DNA of 40,617 nt from a virus: positions 1 to 40,617 of the IMG/VR virus record IMGVR_UViG_3300032607_000369; one strand, written 5' to 3'. Below, in pieces: positions 1 to 40,402 of the stretch; position 1 is the stretch's first letter, and each line of letters starts with the position of its first letter. The translations under genes and the position numbers were made by a program. The notes under the pieces were generated by a model. It was not told the origin of the DNA. It ran no database searches and worked only from the letters and a program-made list of their open reading frames with translations.

Positions 1-14
1 GTTACAAGCAAGCT
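1..14 (-). repeat. Terminal core of a fifth attC-like site, cut by the window edge
   Basis: The plus strand starts GTTACAAGCAAGCT. On the minus strand at 654-641 the same cassette starts GTTACAAGCAGGCT, so the two ends of the methyltransferase cassette form a 14-bp inverted repeat with one mismatch at position 11. By analogy with the other sites this is the 3-prime core box (R'') of the methyltransferase cassette, and it supplies the stop codon TAA. The rest of the site would lie beyond the window or has been lost. Confidence 0.7.
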
Positions 15-616
15 CCGAACAACCCGATCTGATTGACGATATTTGCATCATAACTTTCAGTTGCACAATTCAAGATGTGTAATCCTAATTCGTGGTTGAC
101 TGCATTTCTATCTTCTAATTTCTTAGAATGAGCGTGGTTTTTTTTGCCTACATATTGTTTCATCATTGTTCCCACTTCATCTTTCGGCAATTCTATTTTT
201 GGGATTTTAAAGTTTGACCACAAATAATGTCTACCTACTGCTGACGTTGGTGGTATAAAATATTCGTAATAACTCACTACGTTTTCCACACAAAACTTTC
301 CTTTAAAAAAGGTCTTTAAGAAAATTATTTCTTGCCATAACTCCATTTTAGGATAACGACTTTCAGTAATATAATTTATAAAATAATTTGCTCTGCTATG
401 CGTTTGGCAAGGTGGCGAAGTCCATATAAAATCGAACTCTGAATAATGGTTTAATAGATATTGATGTGCATCAGCAACTACAACTGTATCATTAGGAAAT
501 AAAGCTTTGTATTTTTCAGAAATTTTCAAATCGTATTCAACCGCTGTAATTTCGTGGTCGTTTCCCCATAGTTTACGGTTTCCACCTATTCCGCAATATA
601 AATTTAGTATTTTCAT
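2..616 (-). CDS. C5-cytosine DNA methyltransferase, small phage type
   Basis: A 204-residue protein that should transfer a methyl group from S-adenosylmethionine to cytosine C5 in DNA. Visible motifs are the SAM-binding LNLYCGIGG (residues 4-12), acidic E27 and D49, the catalytic loop TSPPCQ with Cys70, ENV at 111-113, and an Arg at 129 in GRHYLW. The target-recognition region is very short, so specificity cannot be read. The ATG at 616 is preferred over an in-frame GTG at 658, because motif I then begins a few residues in, as usual for the family. The gene is the last cassette of the array and its TAA lies in the core at 1-14. In a phage, such an enzyme usually protects DNA from host restriction. 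That role is inferred. Confidence 0.88.
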   Translation of the reverse strand: MKILNLYCGIGGNRKLWGNDHEITAVEYDLKISEKYKALFPNDTVVVADAHQYLLNHYSEFDFIWTSPPCQTHSRANYFINYITESRYPKMELWQEIIFLKTFFKGKFCVENVVSYYEYFIPPTSAVGRHYLWSNFKIPKIELPKDEVGTMMKQYVGKKNHAHSKKLEDRNAVNHELGLHILNCATESYDANIVNQIGLFGACL

Positions 617-645
617 AAGTTCATTTTGTTTTAAATTAAAAGCCT

Positions 646-729
646 GCTTGTAACACACGATAAGTGCTATTTGCCGAAAGTAGGTTTCCGCATAAGCAAA
701 CAGCCCCTATCGCGGGAACGTTATAAGCC
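646..729 (-). repeat. attC-like site B (84 bp), between cassette 3 and the methyltransferase cassette
   Basis: Read on the minus strand, it starts with box GGCTTATAAC, then a 5-nt spacer GTTCC, a stem arm CGCGATAGGGGCTGTTTGC, a loop, the opposing arm, a 1-nt spacer, and box GTTACAAGC. The arms pair at about 15 of 19 positions. The two outer boxes fit their own cassettes better than each other: GGCTTATAAC is the exact complement of the start of cassette 3, and GTTACAAGC matches the end of the methyltransferase cassette. Unlike sites C, D and E it holds no ATG. Calling it attC-like is inference from architecture. Confidence 0.75.
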
Positions 730-930
730 ATTAAGCGAAATAACCTCTGCTCTTGCTTCGTCTTTAGTTTTAAAAACACCAATTAGCTTTATAAATCTTT
801 TTTGGCTTTTGCAATATGTAGTAATCCACCATCCATCAGTAAATTTAAAAATATCTGAATTAGAATAACGGCTTATAACAGCGTTTTTGCAAGATTGTGA
901 CATTCCTGTATTTTTGTCTGTATTTTCCAT
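721..930 (-). CDS. Cassette 3 protein, 69 aa, unknown function, N-terminus from the upstream attC-like site
   Basis: Function is not recognised. Residues 1-17 (MENTDKNTGMSQSCKNA) are encoded by attC-like site C, and Val18 is the GTT core at 879. The remaining 52 residues, from VISRYSNSD to the C-terminus, form a short domain with a WW pair and a basic middle. The region after the core has no in-frame ATG, GTG or TTG, so translation must start inside the upstream site. The TAA stop lies in the terminal core TTATAAC. The first 20 residues closely match those of the protein at 1329-1577, while the bodies are unrelated. This suggests a modular exchange at the core. Confidence 0.65.
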   Translation of the reverse strand: MENTDKNTGMSQSCKNAVISRYSNSDIFKFTDGWWITTYCKSQKRFIKLIGVFKTKDEARAEVISLNGL

Positions 931-1008
931 AATTTAAAGTTTAGTTTATTTTTGTTAATATTAGTCTTGAATAGTTCACAACCTCGCAAAGACGCAGGAC
1001 GTTATGCC
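870..1008 (-). repeat. attC-like site C (139 bp), between cassettes 2 and 3, carrying a start codon
   Basis: Minus-strand order: box GGCATAAC (1008-1001), 5-nt spacer GTCCT, arm GCGTCTTTGCGAGGTTGTGA, a long loop of about 70 nt, the opposing arm, a 1-nt spacer, and box GTTATAAGCC (879-870). The arms pair at about 16 of 20 positions. The loop contains CTAAACTTTAAATTATG, whose ATG (930) opens the reading frame of cassette 3. Box GGCATAAC complements the start of cassette 2, and GTTATAAGCC complements the end of cassette 3. Confidence 0.8.
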
Positions 1009-1253
1009 TCATTGTGTAGAACACAACCAAAATCATTTCTAGTAATTAACTCTCCTCCAATACCTTCACCTGAACATATGGCATCAATCATTCCGTTGCT
1101 TTTATCTTCATCGGCAATATTGCATATTTTATAATCTTCTGAATATCCTTGTAAAACATAGAAATTATCAATCCAATGTTTACAAGTAGAACAACGAGGC
1201 ATAACACTCGTTTGGCTCAATGCCTTATTTTCGTTTATATCGTTTTTCATCAC
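1002..1253 (-). CDS. Cassette 2 protein, 83 aa, cysteine-rich, probably zinc-binding
   Basis: The body begins MPRCSTCKHW, with a Cys-x2-Cys pair and further cysteines in KICN, AICS and FGCV, so a small zinc-binding fold is plausible. Its exact function is unknown. The frame opens at an ATG in attC-like site D (1253 or 1250), reads through the GTT core as Val, and could also start at the ATG within the core GTTATGCC (1202), which would give the protein starting MPRC. The stop TAA lies in the downstream core GGCATAAC at 1002-1004. Cassette ends are GTTATGCCTC-G/A-TTGT inverted repeats. Confidence 0.68.
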   Translation of the reverse strand: MMKNDINENKALSQTSVMPRCSTCKHWIDNFYVLQGYSEDYKICNIADEDKSNGMIDAICSGEGIGGELITRNDFGCVLHNEA

Positions 1254-1322
1254 GTTTATTTTAAATTAGAAATTATTGTTTTCATAACTCGGCACTAAGC
1301 CAAGCGAGGGAACGTTAGCAGT
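1198..1322 (-). repeat. attC-like site D (about 125 bp), between cassettes 1 and 2, carrying a start codon
   Basis: Minus-strand order: box ACTGCTAAC (1322-1314), 5-nt spacer GTTCC, arm CTCGCTTGGCTTAGTGCC, loop with ATG at 1253/1250, opposing arm, 1-nt spacer, box GTTATGCC (1205-1198). The arms match at about 15 of 18 positions. This site shows the exchange signature best: its two boxes do not complement each other (TGCTAAC against GGCATAAC), but each complements the far end of its own cassette exactly. Confidence 0.8.
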
Positions 1323-1328
1323 AATGTT

Positions 1329-1577
1329 CTAACGCAACTGCATTTGATTGTAAAATTCAAATTTTTCATCCGTAAGACATTGGTATTTTATTAATTTCCA
1401 TCCGTCTTTATTTGCTATTGATAACATTTCATCGTCAATGTATTTCATATCTTCTTCGCTCCAACTATTAGAAAATTTACCATCATTGATATTTAACCAG
1501 CAATATATAAAAACACTACTGCTAACAGCGTTTTTGTCGCATTGTGGCATCGGTGTATTTTTGTCTGTATTCGGCAT
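1329..1577 (-). CDS. Cassette 1 protein, 82 aa, unknown function, N-terminus from the upstream attC-like site
   Basis: No family was recognised. Residues 1-17 (MPNTDKNTPMPQCDKNA) come from attC-like site E, and Val18 is the GTT core at 1526. The body contains a short hydrophobic stretch (VFIYCWLNI) and an acidic segment (WSEEDMKYIDDEM). The first in-frame ATG after the core is 26 codons further on, so the upstream ATG is the likely start. The N-terminal tag is nearly the same as in the protein at 721-930. The TAG stop sits next to the terminal inverted repeat (1314-1328), a few bases before the core, unlike the other cassettes, which stop inside it. Confidence 0.65.
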   Translation of the reverse strand: MPNTDKNTPMPQCDKNAVSSSVFIYCWLNINDGKFSNSWSEEDMKYIDDEMLSIANKDGWKLIKYQCLTDEKFEFYNQMQLR

Positions 1578-1656
1578 AATTTTAAGTTTAGGTATTGTTA
1601 GTAATTATTAGTTTTTAATCGCCCACAACGAGGACAAAGACGCAATACGTTATGCC
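1519..1656 (-). repeat. attC-like site E (138 bp), upstream end of the cassette array, carrying a start codon
   Basis: Minus-strand order: box GGCATAAC (1656-1649), 5-nt spacer GTATT, arm GCGTCTTTGTCCTCGTTGTGG, loop, opposing arm CCACAATGCGACAAAAACGC, 1-nt spacer, box GTTAGCAG (1526-1519). It resembles site C closely, including the segment CTAAACTT-AAATTATG and the ACAGACAAAAATACA coding stretch. The ATG at 1577 opens cassette 1. Its first box has no partner elsewhere in the window, so the cassette it once closed has lost its own start or was not acquired by the same route. Confidence 0.78.
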
Positions 1657-1724
1657 AATACTATCACCAATCCTGCTATAAAGGTAAGAAACGAAAGTAC
1701 TGCTATTGCTATAAATCCTCGCAT
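1650..1724 (-). CDS. Predicted 24-aa single-pass membrane peptide
   Basis: ATG at 1724 opens a 24-codon frame, MRGFIAIAVLSFLTF and onward, that is almost wholly hydrophobic (one transmembrane segment) with one Arg near the N-terminus. It overlaps the end of the gene at 1709-2026 by 16 nt in another frame, which fits translational coupling. Its TAA is the one in core box GGCATAAC of attC-like site E. No function can be given. It could be a chance frame, but the composition and stop position favour a real peptide. Confidence 0.5.
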   Translation of the reverse strand: MRGFIAIAVLSFLTFIAGLVIVLA

Positions 1725-2026
1725 AAGTCTTCTATAAAATTATCAGCTTCTTGCCTGTTGTCAAACTCAAATATTCCGTAGTTAACAAATCCCTCTAGCG
1801 ATTCTAGTCTAGCAAATTCCGAAGGGAGATGCTTCTTCAAATCGTTTGTAATAGTAGCGGATCTAACTTCTTCGTCGTATATATCCATCATCACATAGAC
1901 TTTTTTAGTCTTCTTAACGAACTCAAATATGTAGTTGACAAAATTCTCAAACTCTTCAAACGTATCGAAGAAATATTCGTCACTACCTTCAACATCTTTA
2001 GAAAACCAATAATTAAAACTTATCAT
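1709..2026 (-). CDS. Hypothetical acidic protein, 105 aa
   Basis: Not recognised. The sequence is rich in Asp, Glu and aromatic residues, for example EYFFDTFEEFENFVNYIFEF, with a hydrophobic patch VYVMMDIYD in the middle and an acidic C-terminus (FIEDLCEDL). No metal-binding or catalytic pattern is visible. The start overlaps the stop of the upstream gene in ATGA, which supports operon membership and the chosen start. The acidic, aromatic composition resembles small phage inhibitors, but no specific role is supported. Confidence 0.75.
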   Translation of the reverse strand: MISFNYWFSKDVEGSDEYFFDTFEEFENFVNYIFEFVKKTKKVYVMMDIYDEEVRSATITNDLKKHLPSEFARLESLEGFVNYGIFEFDNRQEADNFIEDLCEDL

Positions 2027-2226
2027 TTTACGTATTTATTAATTAATAACCAATCTACTATTCTAACTTTCATCGTATCTAGGAATCTAACATAAGCCTT
2101 CTCAGACCTGTCCTCCTCGTCGATAAACCTGCCAACGTAATAACACTCTCTTCCGGTCTTTGTTAAGAAAGGATTTGCGTTAGCAGGAATCTCCAGACCT
2201 TTATACATTTTATTTCCTGGTCTCAT
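2023..2226 (-). CDS. Hypothetical protein, 67 aa
   Basis: Not recognised. The protein has a middle segment RECYYVGRFIDEEDRSEKAYVRF with alternating aromatic and charged residues, which suggests a small beta-rich fold. A second ATG at residue 7 (2208) lies 1 nt after the stop of the upstream gene, with AGGAAATAA just before it. It is at least as good a start as 2226, which would overlap the upstream gene by 17 nt. The stop TGA overlaps the next ATG. Confidence 0.72.
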   Translation of the reverse strand: MRPGNKMYKGLEIPANANPFLTKTGRECYYVGRFIDEEDRSEKAYVRFLDTMKVRIVDWLLINKYVK

Positions 2227-2470
2227 CTAAAGAATATTTTTTAAATAAACTCTGAATTTCTTCTATGCAGTCTGTTGTTGCTGCTATATGGTTTTCTGAA
2301 GGATTGTCTTTTCCTTTAAATAGATATACGCAAAAATACTTTCCTTCCAACCAACCTGAAATAGCATAATAATATTCCCAATTACTTTTTGACCCTCTGT
2401 AATAAGTACCTATTTTACTTCTAGGACTTCTCTTTAAATACGTTATTAACTTTTTTGCTTGTGATTTCAT
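2210..2470 (-). CDS. Hypothetical protein, 86 aa
   Basis: Not recognised. A basic N-terminus (MKSQAKKLITYLKRSPRSK) is followed by an aromatic stretch with WEYYYAISGWLEG and YFCVYLFKG, then a helical C-terminus CIEEIQSLFKKYSL. Base usage is like that of the neighbours and the gene is spaced 3 nt from the one upstream. No motif permits a function. Confidence 0.72.
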   Translation of the reverse strand: MKSQAKKLITYLKRSPRSKIGTYYRGSKSNWEYYYAISGWLEGKYFCVYLFKGKDNPSENHIAATTDCIEEIQSLFKKYSLDETRK

Positions 2471-2473
2471 AAT

Positions 2474-2875
2474 TTATACTTTTGTTATTGTAAAATCCGA
2501 ATATCTTTTAGTAATTAATCCATCTTGAATAGAATCTATTAGTCTTTGTCTGATATCCATATCTGCTTCTTTTTCGCTATCAAAGTAAAACTTTAGATCA
2601 TCAAAGTTACTTGTAACTTCATACTCAAAATTTACTGTTTTAATATCATCATTAGTAAACTTATAGCCACATTCAGTGCAGTTGTAGTATCCTTTGTAAG
2701 TATCTCCTAAGTCGTATACAACTTCGTCAATCTCTACTTGCTCTTTTTCATTTTGCTCATCTGATTGAGTTTTCTCGCATCCGCAGATGTCTCCTACGAA
2801 ATATTGGTCTGTGTAATCGTCACACATTGACTCAAAGCACCTGTCTTCTCTACTGTTTCCGTAAATTCCGCTCAT
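2474..2875 (-). CDS. Hypothetical protein with a zinc-ribbon-like CxxC, 133 aa
   Basis: Not assigned to a family. It has a Cys-rich N-terminus (RCFESMCDDY, DICGCE) and a CTECGY knuckle near residue 70, so it may bind zinc. The C-terminal third contains FYFDSEKEADMDIRQRLIDSI, predicted helix. The start is preceded by a 24-bp sequence (2880-2903) that also occurs before the gene at 11854-12129. This hints at a shared translation or transcription signal. Confidence 0.72.
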   Translation of the reverse strand: MSGIYGNSREDRCFESMCDDYTDQYFVGDICGCEKTQSDEQNEKEQVEIDEVVYDLGDTYKGYYNCTECGYKFTNDDIKTVNFEYEVTSNFDDLKFYFDSEKEADMDIRQRLIDSIQDGLITKRYSDFTITKV

Positions 2876-2879
2876 AATT

Positions 2880-2903
2880 TCTATTTGTTTCTGTAAATGT
2901 AGT
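2880..2903 (-). promoter_or_regulatory. 24-bp repeated upstream element, copy 1
   Basis: Contains ACATTTACAGAAACAAATAG on the minus strand, just before the ATG at 2875. An identical 24-bp copy lies at 12131-12154 before another gene. Position right at the start codon suggests a ribosome-binding or operator role. This is inference only. Confidence 0.45.
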
Positions 2904-2936
2904 ATCTATATACTAATTAAAAATTAGTATTAACAA

Positions 2937-3194
2937 TTATTTAACGAAATTAATTTCGTAGTCTATCCATACCTCAACTCTAAAACCTTGTTCTTTAAGC
3001 TCTTGCACACGTAATTCTTGTAATGGCTTTAAAACTCCTTTCGGCTGTTTCACCTCTACAAATAAGGTCTCACCATTGCGTAGAGCCATAAGATCAGGTA
3101 TTCCATTCATAGTAGTCTTTATCAATTTAACTACAATCCAACCTTCTCTCTTGAGTCGATCAGATATCTTCTTTTGTCTAGCTTGCTCTATCAT
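2937..3194 (-). CDS. VRR-NUC domain nuclease, 85 aa
   Basis: A single-domain PD-(D/E)xK nuclease of the VRR-NUC family, which in phages is linked to processing of branched or recombining DNA. The visible signature is GIPDLMAL (catalytic Asp) followed by LFVEVKQPKG, giving the ExK pair, and a C-terminal QELKEQGFRVEVW helix-strand typical of the fold. Length fits stand-alone phage members. It sits beside the SF2 helicase and primase-helicase, so a joint role in replication or recombination is likely. Its start overlaps the upstream stop by 4 nt. Confidence 0.88.
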   Translation of the reverse strand: MIEQARQKKISDRLKREGWIVVKLIKTTMNGIPDLMALRNGETLFVEVKQPKGVLKPLQELRVQELKEQGFRVEVWIDYEINFVK

Positions 3195-4920: not shown

Positions 4921-7242
4921 TTAAAATTCTATTTCGTTAATATCTTGTTTATCATCTGTCTTAATTACGAACCAATGGCTTGATGCTGAATGACCATCGT
5001 TGTAGATGTAACCCATGTAAGAGCAGTACTTCTGTATCCAAATGTTAAACCTCTTGCGTTGTAGCCACTTTTTAAAATCTTGATATTCATCTACAAAATT
5101 GTCGTAGTATAATTTCTTCTCTAATCTGCAATTGCGACCTACGTTCTCGTTATCTCCTATCCATTCTAAGAACTCCATTGATGTTTCGGCTATAAACTTA
5201 CGAAGCTTAATGTTTTTAGCGTTCTGAGGAACTAGTCCTAGCTTTAAAAATGATTGTAAACACCTAACCATATAATTATCGAACTTTAAGAACTCAATAT
5301 CTTCCCAATCATCAAATAATTGCTTTCCAAATTCGTCAAATGGACTTAAATTCTTGCCGTAATACTGAGCTATCTCTACCTCGAACCTTCTTCTATCGTG
5401 GCTATTCCCTTCTCCTTTGATTGCGTAGTTAGTAGAGATTACCATCTTAGGAGAGTCTTCTACTTTCAATTTAATAGCATCTTTGTTCTTACGTTCCAAT
5501 GTCATTCCTTCAGTTACTAGAGAGAATTTATTCTCAAAGTTAAAGTTACGTATAACATCATCAAAAACAAGTACTTGAGTCTCTGTTGATACTGTCTGAT
5601 AAGGGAATGATTTCTTATCGTCAAAGGTCTTACCATCTAAAATAGCAATCTTTCTTATCTGATTAATGCCTTGGATGAACAATCCTTTTCCAGTCCCTCC
5701 TTCAGGATTATCTGTTATAGTCTCATCATTCAATATAATAGCCTTATTATTCATTTTATTCTTGTACGTAGATATTAGATATCCAATAACACACTCCATA
5801 GATAATGGCTCATTGCTAGAGATGTTATTCACAAAAACTTTGTACTCATTCTCAAATTCCTCTAACAATTCAAAGTCTCTGTTGATGATTTGATTCTCCC
5901 AAATGTAACCTCCTACGGTAAAATATTCAACCAATTCAATTGAGTCTTTAGTAATCTCTAACACTCCGTTCCTAAATGCGATAAAAGACTTTTGCCTCGT
6001 GTCTCTAAGCATCATCAGCTCTATCGTTGGCAACATCAAAAGATACACCTCTGAAAATAAGTTGTTATACTTAGCACAGTAGTTCCATACCTCCATCTCT
6101 TCTCTCTGAATAAGATACCCCAATACAAAATCTTTGATCCTCTCTACCGATGTCTCAACTACTTTGTTCTCGTGAACGTAAACTAAAGTCGGTTCAGTTG
6201 CTTCGTGTGGAAAGTACTTCTTAAATCCGTTTCGCTCTAGGAAATCCTTGTAGCGGAATGAATTTATAGATATTTTACCCTTATCATCTACAACCCAGAA
6301 CGCAGTATGCTCAGAGTCATTATTCAAATCGTCAACAATCTCTTCGTCTACCTGATACTTATCCATTACAAATTTCTTCCCTCTCTTCAGGTCAGAACGC
6401 ATTAAGTCTATCTTAGTGTAATCTTCAAAGAACTTAGAGTCAAATGTCCTCTTTCTGTAGGCTGATTTTATAGTGGTTTTTGCTTCCGAGTCAGTAAAGT
6501 CTCCATCAATAACATTTGTTAAGATATATCCCTCTGCAGTGTACTCTGATATTCCGTACTCACAGAATGCTCCTGCTAAATCGAAGATAAACGCATTACG
6601 TTCGCCATCTACAAAACCTTTCTTCCAATCAAACTGCATAATCTTATCTATAATCTTACCTTCATCACTTAGAGGAACTAAAGGAACTTTCTCAGACATT
6701 GTGTAACCCTCATCAATAAGGGTTGGTTCAAAAAGTTTCGCATCCATATTGATAAATATGTTTGGATCATAAGACTCAAAACAAACTCTGTCTACATTTG
6801 AATTGGCTATGTCAAAATACTCATAATTGAATTGCTTCTGAAATGCCTTGAAGAATTTAGGGTGAGTTGCCTTGGTAGCCTCAGGTATTTTAACCACTCC
6901 TTTTATACCTTTACCGCTAGGAGAAATAAATAGAGATATAAAGTGAGGGTTTTGTTTTAATAGCTGCATCTGAGTTGTCATAGTTGCCTCGTCGGGGTAC
7001 TTATCAAAGTCCACAACCATAAGACCACTGTGCGTTACTAAAGAGTTGGAATTTCTCTCAGTAAACTCTCCTGAAAATAAAATACAAGGTAGTGAGTTCT
7101 TAGCAGCCTTATCTCCTTCTCTAATCTTTTCTACTAAAGCCTTTGATTTGCCTATTTTTATCCTCTCTAAGACCTTATCTATCTCCATTGAGTAAGGAAT
7201 ATCCTTTGACTTATATAAGTCCTTAAAAACGCTTATTTTCAT
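4921..7242 (-). CDS. Primase-helicase with VirE-like N-terminal domain, 773 aa
   Basis: Replication protein that should make primers and unwind DNA. Residues 1-170 resemble the BT4734/VirE N-terminal primase-polymerase-like domain, with MVVDFDK (75-81) and SPSGKGIKGVV (107-117). A helical linker (about 185-265) resembles primase C-terminal domains. The C-terminal half is a D5-type superfamily 3-like ATPase with Walker A GGTGKG (515-520), Walker B VLVFDD (557-562), a sensor-like VISTNY (601-606) and Arg-rich HDRRRFE (615-621). It is the largest gene of the left operon and probably the central replication enzyme. A separate polymerase was not seen, so host polymerase is probably used. Confidence 0.87.
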   Translation of the reverse strand: MKISVFKDLYKSKDIPYSMEIDKVLERIKIGKSKALVEKIREGDKAAKNSLPCILFSGEFTERNSNSLVTHSGLMVVDFDKYPDEATMTTQMQLLKQNPHFISLFISPSGKGIKGVVKIPEATKATHPKFFKAFQKQFNYEYFDIANSNVDRVCFESYDPNIFINMDAKLFEPTLIDEGYTMSEKVPLVPLSDEGKIIDKIMQFDWKKGFVDGERNAFIFDLAGAFCEYGISEYTAEGYILTNVIDGDFTDSEAKTTIKSAYRKRTFDSKFFEDYTKIDLMRSDLKRGKKFVMDKYQVDEEIVDDLNNDSEHTAFWVVDDKGKISINSFRYKDFLERNGFKKYFPHEATEPTLVYVHENKVVETSVERIKDFVLGYLIQREEMEVWNYCAKYNNLFSEVYLLMLPTIELMMLRDTRQKSFIAFRNGVLEITKDSIELVEYFTVGGYIWENQIINRDFELLEEFENEYKVFVNNISSNEPLSMECVIGYLISTYKNKMNNKAIILNDETITDNPEGGTGKGLFIQGINQIRKIAILDGKTFDDKKSFPYQTVSTETQVLVFDDVIRNFNFENKFSLVTEGMTLERKNKDAIKLKVEDSPKMVISTNYAIKGEGNSHDRRRFEVEIAQYYGKNLSPFDEFGKQLFDDWEDIEFLKFDNYMVRCLQSFLKLGLVPQNAKNIKLRKFIAETSMEFLEWIGDNENVGRNCRLEKKLYYDNFVDEYQDFKKWLQRKRFNIWIQKYCSYMGYIYNDGHSASSHWFVIKTDDKQDINEIEF

Positions 7243-7243
7243 C

Positions 7244-7666
7244 TTATTTCTTTGTTAAGTTATATCCAAGTTCTTCGGCTAATCTCTCTATCTCTAATTC
7301 CTTATCTGATTTCTTAGGTTTGAGGCGGTATTTAGTTGTAAATCCTGAAGCACAACTTTGCCATTCTCCCTTCCAATCTAAAAACTGCATATCCTTACCT
7401 AACCATATCACCTCATCTTTCTCTATCTCTGAGAATAGTATAACAGTACGGTCTGTTTCAAAGTCAGTCCAAAACCATCTATTACTACTGTTTCTACTTG
7501 TAACTAAATAATAACCTTCTACAGAAGCTATAGAATTACTACTAAGCCATTTGTCATAAGGGTATAATCCCTTAACTAATTCAGTAAACTCTTCAGTATG
7601 CTCTATCTTTAAAATGTGAATCCCTTTATCTAATAACTCTCTTACCTTACTCTTACTATATTTCAT
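7244..7666 (-). CDS. Hypothetical protein, 140 aa, first gene of the left operon
   Basis: Not recognised. The N-terminus MKYSKSKVRELLDKGIHILK looks helical. The middle has aromatic beta-like segments (NRWFWTDFETDRTVILF, QFLDWKGEWQ), and the C-terminus is a charged helix KSDKELEIERLAEELGYN. It is separated from the primase-helicase by 1 nt. As the first gene after the promoter at 7683-7716 it would be made earliest, but no regulatory domain is evident. Confidence 0.75.
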   Translation of the reverse strand: MKYSKSKVRELLDKGIHILKIEHTEEFTELVKGLYPYDKWLSSNSIASVEGYYLVTSRNSSNRWFWTDFETDRTVILFSEIEKDEVIWLGKDMQFLDWKGEWQSCASGFTTKYRLKPKKSDKELEIERLAEELGYNLTKK

Positions 7667-7682
7667 AATTTATATTTTTTAC

Positions 7683-7716
7683 CAAAGATATATCTAAAGA
7701 ATGGATAAAAAGGCAA
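7683..7716 (-). promoter_or_regulatory. Predicted promoter of the left operon
   Basis: On the minus strand TTG (7716-7714) is followed after 23 nt by TATCTTTG (7690-7683), a match to the Bacteroidota -7 pattern TAnnTTTG. The spacing is at the long end. It lies 17 nt before the ATG at 7666. The same TATCTTTG octamer marks the promoters at 13699 and 16403. Confidence 0.6.
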
Positions 7717-7739
7717 CATTAACAAAATCTTAACAAATA

Positions 7740-7795
7740 AAAGCCGCCTATCTTAACCCTTGGTATCATTGGGTTTATAATAATGTGGCGGCTTT
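7740..7795. repeat. Composite element copy 1, part a: GCCGCC/GGCGGC hairpin
   Basis: AAAGCCGCC (7740-7748) pairs with GGCGGCTTT (7787-7795) around a 38-nt loop and is followed by TTTTTT on the plus strand. The loop resembles that of the hairpin at 16263-16318 in the same orientation (ATCTT, CCCTTG, TAATGT shared in order). It could terminate transcription, but no plus-strand gene precedes it. Confidence 0.6.
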
Positions 7796-7816
7796 TTTCT
7801 ATTTTTAGGTCAAATT

Positions 7817-9192: not shown

Positions 9193-10035
9193 TTATATTG
9201 ATATTGGTGCTATCATTTCTACTTTAACTGCTTCGTTACTCTCGTAGCCAATTAGTTTAAAGTTACTTGGATCTAAATCCTCTCCCCACAAATCAGAAGC
9301 TATTTCTAGTTCTACTTCAGGGAAATCATCATCCTTGAATATCAAAGTAGAAGCGGCTATTACGCTGTTATCGTACAAATGAACGCACTTTAAGTCTCCT
9401 TGAATGGCCAATGCTTTGTAACCTGTGATGTTCTCTAATATCCTAGCTAAGATGCCATATGAAGCTATATTAAATGGAAGACCTAAGAACAAATCTACGC
9501 TTCTCTGATTCCAATGCAACTCAAACCCAAACTCTCCACTATCTAACGGAACTCCAATTATCTGAAATCCAGTATGACAGGGTGGAAGGGCAGTATCATC
9601 TAGCTCTAGCGGATTCCAAGCTTCAACTTTAAGTCTACTAGACATAATATCCTTAATCATTCCTTCGATAAGAATATCAATTTGGTCTATCTTGCCTCCG
9701 TAGTCTCTCCATTGAACAGAATAGTTCTGTCCTACAGAGTTCTTCTCTCCTGTCTTTATCTCCCAATTCTTTGCGTCAGCGTCCCAGATATGGCAGTTAT
9801 GCTCGTGAAGAAAGTCTAAGGTATTGTCTCCTCTTAAGAACCAACATAGCTCAGTCGCTACTGTCTTAAATGGCAGTTTCTTAAGTCCTATAGCAGGAAA
9901 TCCATCTTCAAAACTATGTCTGAATGTATAACTAGGTATCTGTAGTCTCTCTACATTCCTTCTCTCATTCTTGTATGTAGCTCCGTTAGCTAATACATCT
10001 TCTAGAATGTTCTTGTAATTACGATTTATGTTCAT
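9193..10035 (-). CDS. thyA: Thymidylate synthase (ThyA type)
   Basis: Converts dUMP to dTMP with methylenetetrahydrofolate, raising the thymidine pool for an AT-rich phage. Conserved features: catalytic Cys153 in LPPCHTGFQ, phosphate-binding Arg in SSRLKVEAWNP and NQRSVD (Arg178), LGLPFNIASY with Asn189, which in this family points to dUMP and not dCMP, HLY after GDLKCV, and the C-terminal IAPISI. The 280-residue length is normal. A short insertion lies between GD and HLY compared with the usual GGDTHLY. The first 17 nt overlap the upstream gene. Confidence 0.93.
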   Translation of the reverse strand: MNINRNYKNILEDVLANGATYKNERRNVERLQIPSYTFRHSFEDGFPAIGLKKLPFKTVATELCWFLRGDNTLDFLHEHNCHIWDADAKNWEIKTGEKNSVGQNYSVQWRDYGGKIDQIDILIEGMIKDIMSSRLKVEAWNPLELDDTALPPCHTGFQIIGVPLDSGEFGFELHWNQRSVDLFLGLPFNIASYGILARILENITGYKALAIQGDLKCVHLYDNSVIAASTLIFKDDDFPEVELEIASDLWGEDLDPSNFKLIGYESNEAVKVEMIAPISI

Positions 10036-10303: not shown

Positions 10304-10994
10304 TGTAGTCTTCTTTTATTTTGATTGCCTCAGCCAATCTAACCTTCATTAAATCAATAAAGGCATCGTCTCTCTCCACGATAATGGTGTGATGATATTC
10401 TCGTCCATCTACTTGCACATAGTTGAAGAAATAGGCTCTCTTGGAATTGGAACACATCATCTGCATCTGCATCTGAGCTATGTACTCTTTATCAATATTC
10501 CCATCAGCGACAAGTTTGAAGAATTTTACTGCTCTAGGACACTTTATCTCAAGTACTGCTTCAATACCAACTACTCCATCGGGTGATGCTCCTGCGTGTT
10601 CGCCAAAGGGAAACATATAAGACTCGACTGTCTCCGGATATAACTCTTTGAACTTCGCAAAAGCAATTGGCTCCAACTCAATACCTCTCTTCATATCCCA
10701 AGACTGCATATTCTCTTCTACTTGACCGTATAAGGTTTCAATAGCTTTCTCGACTGCATAAGTCTCTCCTGTTTGACCAAGACCTCTAACGCCTAGCAGT
10801 TTGTGGATTTGACTAGCAGTAAACTTACCGTACCTGTCTTTAAACCACTCTTCGCTACGCTGTTCTCCTGCTTCTGGAGTCTTAGTTGGTAGTACTTGCG
10901 GTTCTCCGTACTTTGTAGTTCCATTTACTTTGTAGAAGTCTGCGTTCTCTTGTGCTCTCTTCTCTCTTGCTGATTTAAATTGTTCCTTGCTCAT
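10266..10994 (-). CDS. YqaJ-like viral recombinase (lambda-exonuclease fold), 242 aa
   Basis: A 5-prime to 3-prime dsDNA exonuclease expected to make single-stranded tails for annealing. Family motifs in order are QRSEEWFKDRYGKFTAS, MKRGIELEPIAF, GASPDGVVG (catalytic Asp), LEIKCP (Glu and Lys) and a QMQMQMMCS helix. The likely partner is the ssDNA-binding-like or annealing protein at 7935-8600 in the same operon. The start overlaps the stop of the PAPS-reductase-like gene by 4 nt. Confidence 0.9.
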   Translation of the reverse strand: MSKEQFKSAREKRAQENADFYKVNGTTKYGEPQVLPTKTPEAGEQRSEEWFKDRYGKFTASQIHKLLGVRGLGQTGETYAVEKAIETLYGQVEENMQSWDMKRGIELEPIAFAKFKELYPETVESYMFPFGEHAGASPDGVVGIEAVLEIKCPRAVKFFKLVADGNIDKEYIAQMQMQMMCSNSKRAYFFNYVQVDGREYHHTIIVERDDAFIDLMKVRLAEAIKIKEDYIVKLLKNAQYES

Positions 10995-11857
10995 AACTCT
11001 AGTTGATAATTAATTTCTTTTTCTGTTGGATTTCTGTCAAAATCATTTACTCCGCATAGACCATTACAATCAAAAAGAGGCTCTACCTTACAATCAGGCA
11101 TTTCATCTATGCTTTTTAAATTAGGGTAGTCTTGGTGCTTAACTAAAAACACTAAGGTATTGCCACTTTCTTTTGCTTTGTTACTTTGATCCTTTAGCAT
11201 TGTACGAGGCTCTCCTGCTTGGTCAGTTAGTTCGTGCTCCATCTCAGCCATAGCAGTAAATTTACTAGGAAATTCCCTCTGCATCTTCTGCCAGTATCCA
11301 ATACCTCCTTGAACACATCCTGTTTTAAAACAATTATTGTTAGAAAACCCTAAGCTATACATTTTAGGTATTGTAATACCTGCATCTTCAATTATCTTGA
11401 TAGTTTTTATCTTGTCATAAGCCATCATAATAAGAGGGTAAATCGCTTTTGTCTTAGGGTGGTTTTTATTCAGTCCTAAAGCTCTATTAAACTCCTTCTT
11501 CTCAAACTCAAAACCAAAAACTTGATGAGTATAATTAGCTGTCTTTTGCCAATCTTCTCTACATTTTCTCTTTAATATTGTAGAGCAAATAGCTCCTGTA
11601 GCTACATTTAAAGAAACGTGCTTTCTCCAAACATCTTGTATAGACTCATACTTTTCTCCAATGTAAGTAATAGTGTCAATCTCTTTTCCGTACCACTTCT
11701 CACAATCCAACTTAAAACGATAAGTATCATCGTCTTCGTTTTGAGTATCAATCATTATTATTTTGCATCTATCAACTCCATAGATGTCTATAGCTAATTT
11801 ACAAGCTACTGCCGATGTAACTCCTCCGCTCCACCAACAAATTATATCATTCTTCAT
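10991..11857 (-). CDS. Phosphoadenosine phosphosulfate reductase-like PP-loop enzyme, 288 aa
   Basis: An ATP-pyrophosphatase fold enzyme. The N-terminus has SGGVTSAV (residues 10-17), a PP-loop with Thr in place of the usual Asp. Later blocks are CFKTGCVQGGIGYW, a cysteine-containing motif of phage members, and a C-terminal C...CNGLC cluster. In phages such proteins are usually annotated as PAPS reductases, but the substrate is rarely known. Sulfur transfer or nucleobase modification is possible. It sits with nucleotide and recombination genes, and no phosphorothioation partner genes were seen. Confidence 0.82.
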   Translation of the reverse strand: MKNDIICWWSGGVTSAVACKLAIDIYGVDRCKIIMIDTQNEDDDTYRFKLDCEKWYGKEIDTITYIGEKYESIQDVWRKHVSLNVATGAICSTILKRKCREDWQKTANYTHQVFGFEFEKKEFNRALGLNKNHPKTKAIYPLIMMAYDKIKTIKIIEDAGITIPKMYSLGFSNNNCFKTGCVQGGIGYWQKMQREFPSKFTAMAEMEHELTDQAGEPRTMLKDQSNKAKESGNTLVFLVKHQDYPNLKSIDEMPDCKVEPLFDCNGLCGVNDFDRNPTEKEINYQLEL

Positions 11858-39324: not shown

Positions 39325-39627
39325 ATGAACCAGGGGAAACAAGAATATATTTTTAACGAGATAACCGATAAAATGAGAGGTATTATGCTCTCAAAAGGTA
39401 ACGACTATGCTAACGAGGATAGGCTTTCCAACTTCAAACTAGCAGGTTCTATCTGCGGACTATCTCCGGAACAAAACTGCCTTTCGTTAATAGCTACTAA
39501 GGTAGCTAGATTAGGTGTGTTGCTAAAAGAGAAGTCAGAACCGAATAACGAGAGTATAGAGGACAGCCTAGTTGATATGGCTAACTATACTTTATTATTA
39601 ATTATGATACTAAAAGATGAGGTATAG
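39325..39627 (+). CDS. Nmad1/DUF1599-like protein, 100 aa
   Basis: Resembles the nucleotide modification associated domain 1 (DUF1599): GNDYANEDRLSNFKLAG, then NCLSLIATKVARLGVLLKE and NESIEDSLVDMANYTLLLIM. The family has been predicted from gene neighbourhood to take part in DNA base modification, with no settled reaction. It sits after the lysis genes and before the metallophosphoesterase, far from the C5-methyltransferase unless the ends join. Confidence 0.82.
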   Translation: MNQGKQEYIFNEITDKMRGIMLSKGNDYANEDRLSNFKLAGSICGLSPEQNCLSLIATKVARLGVLLKEKSEPNNESIEDSLVDMANYTLLLIMILKDEV

Positions 39628-40402
39628 ACTAAGAGATAAGATTGCTGAGCAGTTAGGATTGCAACTTAATATTAGTGGTAGATATAGGCTTTCTAGCAAG
39701 CAGAATGTAGAGTATTTGAAACTGTTAAGGAGCAAGCCGTATCTTAACGGAGACCCTGATAACTTATTGATAGTCGGAGACATTCATACTCCATTTGACT
39801 TAGATGGTTATTTAGATTTCTGTAGAGAACAACAAGAGATATTTAATTGTGGTACTGTACTGTTTATTGGCGATGTGATTGACTTGCACTATTCCTCGTA
39901 TCATCCAAGTGACCCAGATGGTTATGGAGCTGGAGATGAGCTTGACCGTTCTATCGAAAGGCTACAACCTTATCACGATATGTTTCCTGACGCAAAAGTA
40001 ATCATAGGAAACCACGATAGACTTGTTTACAGAAAAGCATTTAGCGGTGGACTATCTAAAAGGTGGATCAAAGATTACAAAGAAGTTCTTAACACTCCTA
40101 CTTGGGAATTTGTTGAAAGAGTGAATTGGTTTGGTATTGATATTAACCATGGCGAAGGAGGTACTGCTAAAAACAGAATGAAAAAAGAACTATGCTCTCA
40201 AGCTCAAGGTCATTTACACTCTGAGTTATATGTGGAATTTCTACAAGGGAATGGTAAGCAAATATTCGGTTTACAAGTTGGATGTGGAGTAGACACCACT
40301 AAATATGCTTTTGAATATGGAAAGAACTACAAGAAATCAGCTATAGGATGCGGTGTTATCCTAAACAAAGGTACGTTTCCTATAGCTATTCCTATGGTTT
40401 AA
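39617..40402 (+). CDS. Calcineurin-like metallophosphoesterase, 261 aa
   Basis: Metal-dependent phosphoesterase. The metal-binding blocks are all present: GDIHTPF (Asp55, His57), GDVIDLH (Asp86), GNHDR (Asn132, His133), NHGEG (His178) and QGHLHS (His199, His201). The N-terminal 45 residues (RLRDKIAEQLGLQLNISGRY) are outside the catalytic domain and may be HTH-like. It overlaps Nmad1 by 11 nt. Substrate is unknown; phage members are sometimes nucleases or phosphatases. Its stop overlaps that of the opposite gene by 2 nt. Confidence 0.9.
   Translation: MRYRLRDKIAEQLGLQLNISGRYRLSSKQNVEYLKLLRSKPYLNGDPDNLLIVGDIHTPFDLDGYLDFCREQQEIFNCGTVLFIGDVIDLHYSSYHPSDPDGYGAGDELDRSIERLQPYHDMFPDAKVIIGNHDRLVYRKAFSGGLSKRWIKDYKEVLNTPTWEFVERVNWFGIDINHGEGGTAKNRMKKELCSQAQGHLHSELYVEFLQGNGKQIFGLQVGCGVDTTKYAFEYGKNYKKSAIGCGVILNKGTFPIAIPMV

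Follow-up and report, generated by a model that had tools for sequence, protein, structure and literature searches.

Organization of the array

The window, as the whole stretch of DNA analysed is called here, is the complete IMG/VR virus record IMGVR_UViG_3300032607_000369 (40,617 bases). Positions 1-1657 of its minus strand hold four genes in cassette bodies, each of which opens with a GTT box and closes with the exact complement of that box, and each of which is preceded by a spacer with an attC-like hairpin site (Table 1). The box 9-mers of the four bodies are GTTAGCAGT, GTTATGCCT, GTTATAAGC and GTTACAAGC, exact over at least 9 bases; as in integrons, the box pairs are self-complementary, have a G/TT and AAC core (the slash marks the point of exchange) and match within each cassette. 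A first reading of the letters alone (the sequence-only reading) had described these boxed minus-strand cassettes and had placed them at 1-1656; boxes, complements and range are all confirmed. The region is very probably an integron-like cassette array of a tailed phage, in which units of a hairpin plus a gene are moved by a recombinase.

In 2000 dinucleotide shuffles of positions 1-1700, box pairs arose by chance at a mean of 0.19 per shuffle. A chain of two or more was obtained in just 4 of the shuffles and a chain of three in none. No further box pairs of 9-mer length were present in positions 1-3000 beyond those four. The chain of four boxed cassettes is not a product of chance.

Two features had been overlooked in the sequence-only reading: the genes of cassettes 1 to 3 start inside hairpins, and the contig ends with the end box of the fourth body. 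Position 1 is the AAC end of this body, where cassette variation in the population would break the assembly. An acceptor end or a recombinase gene is expected at the place where the contig stops, and a recombinase gene may lie beyond position 1.

Table 1. Positions of the array features in the window.
Feature	Position	Strand	Remarks
attC-like hairpin site A	1518..1657	-	R1 53.6 bits, E 5e-13; 5' box ...GGCATAAC, 3' box GTTAGCAGT
attC-like hairpin site B	1197..1322	-	R1 47.4 bits, fold z -1.87; 5' box ...CTGCTAAC, 3' box GTTATGCCT
attC-like hairpin site C	871..1009	-	R1 50.7 bits; 5' box ...GGCATAAC, 3' box GTTATAAGC
attC-like hairpin site D	646..728	-	R1 45.3 bits, fold z -2.74; 5' box ...CTTATAAC, 3' box GTTACAAGC; short loop
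Cassette 1 body	1314..1526	-	GTTAGCAGT...ACTGCTAAC
Cassette 2 body	1001..1205	-	GTTATGCCT...AGGCATAAC
Cassette 3 body	720..879	-	GTTATAAGC...GCTTATAAC
Cassette 4 body	1..654	-	GTTACAAGC...GCTTGTAAC; end box is the exact contig end
Cassette 1 gene	1329..1577	-	82 aa; start codon within site A (leader MPNTDKNTPMPQCDKNA/V); no Pfam match
Cassette 2 gene	1002..1253	-	83 codons from GTG, 82 from ATG within site B (leader MKNDINENKALSQTS/V)
Cassette 3 gene	721..930	-	69 aa; start codon within site C (leader MENTDKNTGMSQSCKNA/V)
Cassette 4 gene, C5-cytosine DNA methyltransferase	2..658	-	PF00145, Pfam 3.9e-7; relatives in the L339 and L342 arrays
Open reading frame of a 24-aa hydrophobic peptide	1650..1724	-	marks the upstream array edge; its stop codon shares bases with the 5' box of site A

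Structure of the hairpin sites

The window spacers were aligned with related phage spacers, with register kept in some rows by adding or removing spacer bases, and a covariance model (R1) was built from the resulting 32 sites. R1 gives exactly four matches in the window, with E-values of 5e-13 to 1e-10 that are based on a short calibration. These four sites, for which the sequence-only reading had proposed a covariance-model scan, are part of the training set, and their recovery is a consistency check only. Hundreds of sites were found by R1 in sequences outside its training set, which provides independent evidence for the site model.

All four spacers are imperfect palindromes, as had been claimed. 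Folded as single-stranded DNA, three of them do better than shuffles (z -1.9, -2.0 and -2.7); the other (z -0.1) does no better, its signal probably being diluted by a long loop. The 122-nt stretch around site C is 75% identical to that around site A (repeat D1). From the box end inward, the architecture begins with a 4-bp stem of TAAC with GTTA and an internal loop, to which the 5' arm mostly contributes 5 nt and the 3' arm 1 nt. Next come 4 bp, a C-A mismatch, 7 bp and a bulge of a single base; up to 8 further bp then lead to a loop whose length is free to vary. T-A-A-C and G-T-T-A are invariant in all 32 sites. The covariation score of these sites is 0.606, compared with 0.150 in shuffles, and 85% of all cells form pairs, compared with 36-47% when one side is slid. 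As in integron sites, it is structure rather than sequence that is conserved in an imperfect single-strand hairpin. In attC sites each arm carries an unpaired central spacer of about 5-6 nt, and extrahelical bases are present. An invariant T (column 52), either mispaired or in a wobble pair, and the conserved C-A mismatch may stand in for the extrahelical bases.

No Rfam family matches the sites. The pattern SCAAAAACGCTGTTA was also tried as a site finder and dropped; it returned 119 IMG/VR stretches, and almost all of those scanned were chance matches.

Cassette movement in related phages

A BLAST search with the array led to the Flavobacterium 'Moomin' phages (MN812206-MN812241) of the Baltic hosts LMO6 and LMO9. 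The 16 Moomin phages compared carry 4 to 14 recognisable cassettes each. Phages lillamy9-1 and lillamy9-3, both of 38,268 bp and from the same host, differ by one relocated 444-bp cassette (cassette 13), which is flanked by cassettes 4 and 7 in the former and stands at the array end in the latter. Phages mumin6-1 and mumin6-3 are 99.9% identical over 11.5 kb and differ in one cassette, and the last cassette of lillamy9-1 is absent from snork6-2. Relatives with always the same four genes in the same order, which the sequence-only reading had named as the outcome that would speak against it, were not what was found. Cassettes are fewer, extra, moved and reordered, with the junctions in the AAC/GTT box.

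Gain, loss and movement at the box are precise in these relatives. Comparison of empty and filled joints places the exchange inside TAAC(G), with clean junctions that share 6-7 bp and always lie at ...AAC/. In one example the empty joint reads ACATAAC/GTTAAAG and the filled joint ACATAAC/GCTTTGC ... GAGTTATAAC/GTTAAAG.

When the same body was compared between different neighbours, identity of the 5' spacer was 0.89 or higher in 21 of 24 pairs. The 3' spacer was less than 0.75 identical in 22 of 23, being that of the next gene. Because the 5' spacer stays with the gene and the 3' spacer changes, the mobile unit consists of a hairpin and the gene downstream of it, and the crossover takes place at the AAC before the hairpin, i.e. 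in its 5' box (G/TT on the other strand). The sequence-only reading had the polarity reversed, with cassettes starting at GTT and carrying the spacer that follows. The three contrary 5' comparisons all involve body 5; those with sniff9-2 are due to a mis-chained neighbour, a different box having been chained, and the one with mumin6-3 is taken up below. Swapping of bodies behind a fixed leader was considered and is rejected for recent events, as the leader-bearing site travels with its gene.

Gene orientation and start codons within the sites

The sequence-only reading had suggested a search for the same sites in genomes and phages of Bacteroidota. The site type does occur in Flavobacterium chromosomes and in phages, but the genes are canonical in the former and inverted in viruses. 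Orientation was determined relative to the R1 strand and counted from the longest open frames, not from curated genes. At chromosomal sites beside a recombinase in Flavobacterium the ratio of antisense to sense genes is 111 : 3, the canonical cassette layout, whereas in viral arrays genes are sense to the site at 215 : 9 in one set and 39 : 4 in another. A mixed set of loci from bacterial assemblies yielded 154 antisense and 26 sense genes, and many of the sense genes come from contigs that also carry phage portal and head genes or phage-type methyltransferases (L139, L205, L200). The array of the window is of the viral kind, with the site at the 5' end of the gene instead of an attC at its 3' end. 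Since the unit is a hairpin plus the gene downstream of it, the genes are inverted compared with a canonical integron cassette.

Three of the four window genes (cassettes 1-3) start inside the preceding hairpin. The methyltransferase of cassette 4 probably starts at an internal ATG outside the hairpin. Among distinct phage sites, 24 of 73 have a start codon in the hairpin with a frame that stays open across the GTT into the body. The stem-loops of integron attC sites hinder the ribosome, and short open reading frames within attC relieve this hindrance (PMC8876359). A start codon inside the hairpin would answer the same need to translate through the stem-loop.

Near-identical leaders encoded in hairpins, such as MIE[VI]QNQLEIKPETAIAQNR and MT[ED][LI]SKN.., were observed ahead of different proteins. 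Shared leaders occur at L132:2767-2904 and L339:2953-3090, and at window:1518-1657, L259:7967-8106 and L297:2041-2179. These sequences give the impression that sites were fused in frame with new genes.

The associated recombinase

A 17-base piece of the consensus site matched 71 stretches of bacterial genomes, many of them from Flavobacterium. Eleven genome regions were fetched around the best integron-integrase matches, and chromosomal sites were counted by scanning the fetched loci directly with R1. In five of the eleven genomes an array lies on the 3' side of a tyrosine recombinase (about 350-380 aa), with the sites pointing at the recombinase. In two of the remaining six the 3' end of the recombinase gene lies at the contig end, and four have no nearby site; no site was detected within the fetched 20 kb around the recombinase in F. 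cauense and F. suncheonense. In 15 further Flavobacterium regions, chosen for the recombinase only, sites adjoin the recombinase in the same orientation in 11. The Flavobacterium arrays reach about 20 or more sites in 17.5 kb; long chromosomal arrays beside an IntI-like recombinase that lacks the IntI-specific domain are found at L385:2275-17000 and L395:2907-17448.

The best relative of solved structure is Vibrio cholerae IntI4/IntIA (PDB 2a3v, 141 bits). Against TIGR02249 the recombinase scores 200-223 bits and falls short of the cut-off (265) for want of the IntI-specific region: the recombinases beside such arrays skip positions of about 180-238, which correspond to the IntI-specific additional domain (patch III region). 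An N-terminal extension of about 75 aa is present in the Flavobacterium recombinase. According to PMC9668308, the missing region occurs in IntI only and integron-mediated recombination requires it; for this reason the enzyme is not called IntI here.

No tyrosine recombinase was found in seven complete Moomin-type phages or in Polaribacter phage P12002L, and none is encoded in the window. The enzyme should therefore come from the host in these cases. In three viral contigs an IntI-like recombinase gene directly follows the last cassette (L469:3966-4796, L438:10089-10916 and L416:6024-6800). All three have a box complementary to the start box of the last cassette, then about 60 bp, then the recombinase gene. 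In the two of these three contigs that were tested the recombinase is without the IntI-specific region.

Cassette content

Viral cassettes encode N6/N4 and C5 methyltransferases, a Mom protein and a protein with a PAPS (3'-phosphoadenosine-5'-phosphosulfate) reductase domain; several methyltransferases are present per Moomin array. As the cassette pool is rich in DNA-modification genes, swapping of cassettes probably alters which host restriction systems a phage survives. Cassette 6, a methyltransferase, is present in most of the phages compared that were isolated on LMO6 and absent from lillamy9-1 and morran9-1. The LMO6 exception is snusmum6-1, which lacks cassette 6 and carries another methyltransferase cassette. 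Nilsson et al. describe how lillamy9-1 and morran9-1 were re-grown for their low plating on LMO6 and make no mention of integrons, cassettes or attC. Cassette 6 is presumably the gene discussed by these authors; it is a possible cassette-borne determinant of host range, not recognised as mobile in their paper. A close relative of the cassette 4 methyltransferase of the window (77-80% identical) occurs outside any array, as a normal phage gene without a neighbouring site, in L340, L341 and L343.

Proposed mechanism and alternatives

In the mechanism proposed, the hairpin would form from the gene-sense DNA strand, and units would be joined at the 5' box (..A/AC, which is G/TT on the other strand) by an IntI-related tyrosine recombinase. 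Hairpin and downstream gene would leave together as a circle or enter another box. With the genes inverted, the site lies at the 5' end, where it can supply a start codon and a leader peptide, and translation through the 3' arm might stop the hairpin from blocking the ribosome. The recombinase would act in trans from the host, or in some phages be encoded by the gene just past the array. The sites, their structure, the mobile unit, the junctions, the gene orientation and the association with a recombinase are shown by the data; the chemistry between enzyme and site, the circular intermediate and the function of the cassettes are inferred.

The array might alternatively be made up of canonical cassettes, each a gene with the attC that follows it, which came from chromosomal integrons of the host and were mobilised at the GTT at the gene start. 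Host chromosomes carry the same site family, clusters of attC sites lacking integron integrases (CALINs) are known from phages, and IntI1 accepts phage attC sites, having recombined five of six tested (PMC9892861). Body 5 of mumin6-3 also fits an exchange at the other end. The orientation of gene to site is, however, opposite in viruses and chromosomes, and it is the 5' spacer and not the 3' spacer that stays with the gene, which refutes this origin for the recent Moomin events and makes it very unlikely as an account of the array. The likeness of sites A and C would suit homologous or illegitimate recombination between short repeats, i.e. ordinary phage mosaicism with hairpins that are mere repeats or terminators; phages are mosaic, and gene and site reassort over long times. 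Yet only 6-7 bp are common at the junctions, at a constant position in the box, and sites within one array are otherwise dissimilar. Homologous recombination is rejected as the main cause on the grounds of these short junctions. Terminators, which the sequence-only reading had named as an outcome that would refute it, are likewise rejected, as the stems are asymmetric and kept by covariation and no T-run follows the hairpins. Mosaicism is highly improbable.

Single-strand transposition by a Y1 HUH enzyme of the IS200/IS605 type would define the unit by a hairpin end and by pairing of the box with an internal guide. The unit does enter on the 3' side of a short box, and this box pairs with the sequence at the hairpin foot in a manner that resembles target recognition by IS608. 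No Y1 transposase (PF01797) was detected in the window or in the seven Moomin-type phages; it is an IntI-like tyrosine recombinase that adjoins the arrays instead, and the box length and the self-complementarity per cassette are integron features. This explanation is extremely improbable.

Several observations weigh against recombinase-driven movement of hairpin-plus-gene units. The window encodes no recombinase, so that the actor is unproven here, and it stops at the relevant end of the array; movement was observed in relatives and not in the window's own virus. In Flavobacterium L249, L250, L382 and L386 the recombinase has no site within about 10 kb. Body 5 of mumin6-3 follows the type of site that belongs to body 4 and is a real exception. 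Over long timescales genes and sites reassort, with similar leaders standing before unrelated bodies and with the window methyltransferase standing behind three different sites in the window, L339 and L342. The link between cassette and plating is a correlation from a paper that ignored cassettes. The mumin6-3 locus (L135, about 7050-7815 of the reverse complement) is the sole clear exception to the joint movement of site and gene; the start box of body 5 is GTTAACCGC there and GTTATAGGC in mumin6-1.

Comparison with known systems

The array works like an integron; membership in the standard integrons is not established, given that the IntI-specific domain is missing and that the internal loop has 5 nt against 1 nt. 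Of the integron-like reading made at the outset, the attC-like hairpins, the self-complementary boxes and the mobility of cassettes hold; the polarity is wrong, and a place among standard integrons is doubtful.

Attachment-site clusters in phages are already known (Qi et al. 2023, PMC9892861). These CALINs and integrons likewise include integrase-free attC-like sites in virulent phages, with cassettes for DNA methyltransferases. In that study IntegronFinder and HattCI+Infernal were applied to 10,705 genomes. In its main text no phage of Flavobacterium or Bacteroidota is named except the Polaribacter one, and the parts consulted describe neither cassettes that moved from isolate to isolate nor a systematic inversion of genes nor sites with internal start codons. 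The Polaribacter phage P12002L covered there gives weak matches to R1.

The sedentary chromosomal integrons with a reversed integrase that are typical of Spirochaetota (PMC9668308) resemble the Flavobacterium arrays in having the array 3' of the integrase gene, co-oriented genes and long arrays. They differ in that the Flavobacterium recombinase has its N-terminal extension and no IntI-specific domain, that the site loop is 5 nt against 1 nt, and that the viral genes are inverted. In class 1 integrons, ORF-11 of attI1 and short open reading frames of attC (PMC8876359) similarly use a short frame encoded in the site to help translation past the stem-loop. The ORF-11 leader is separate and the ribosome reinitiates, whereas the leader of the phage sites is joined in frame to the cassette protein, with which it shares one mobile unit. 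The C-terminal SPL motif is common to Vibrio cholerae IntI4/IntIA (2a3v) and the Flavobacterium recombinase, but their alignment is interrupted at the IntI-specific insertion, which the Flavobacterium enzyme lacks.

Inverted cassettes, start codons in sites, the recombinase type and observed cassette movement all appear to be new. No account of phage cassettes with inverted genes, or of arrays like those of Flavobacterium, was found in the open-access literature, a scope that excludes preprints and most subscription papers.

Other features of the window phage

Tailed-phage genes in the window include those for the terminase, the major head protein, the tape measure and tail proteins. The replication block includes a BT4734-like primase, and phages with the same primase (60-81% identity) are frequent in viral metagenomes. 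The virus is a tailed phage, probably of Bacteroidota. Genes for a thymidylate synthase (9193-10035), a PAPS-reductase-like protein (10991-11857) and a metallophosphoesterase (39617-40402) are located elsewhere in the window; the PAPS-reductase-like gene is possibly linked to DNA modification.

Implications

It is rather likely, if less firmly held than the nature of the array itself, that phages of Bacteroidota have a distinct integron lineage of their own, with a domain-less relative of IntI, inverted genes, a start codon and fused leader in the hairpin, and arrays that circulate as exchangeable sets of DNA-modification genes. The leaders common to unrelated proteins would then be traces of the formation of new cassettes. 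The arrays add a large and apparently unrecognised branch to the integrons, common in Flavobacterium chromosomes and environmental phages, whose sites and recombinases are expected to escape standard searches because such searches require the IntI-specific domain. The isolated and published phages amount to a natural experiment in cassette movement, and the arrays offer a concrete route by which virulent phages may swap anti-restriction genes. The strict inversion of genes between chromosomes and viruses, together with the leaders inside the sites, makes the origin of the cassettes a testable question.

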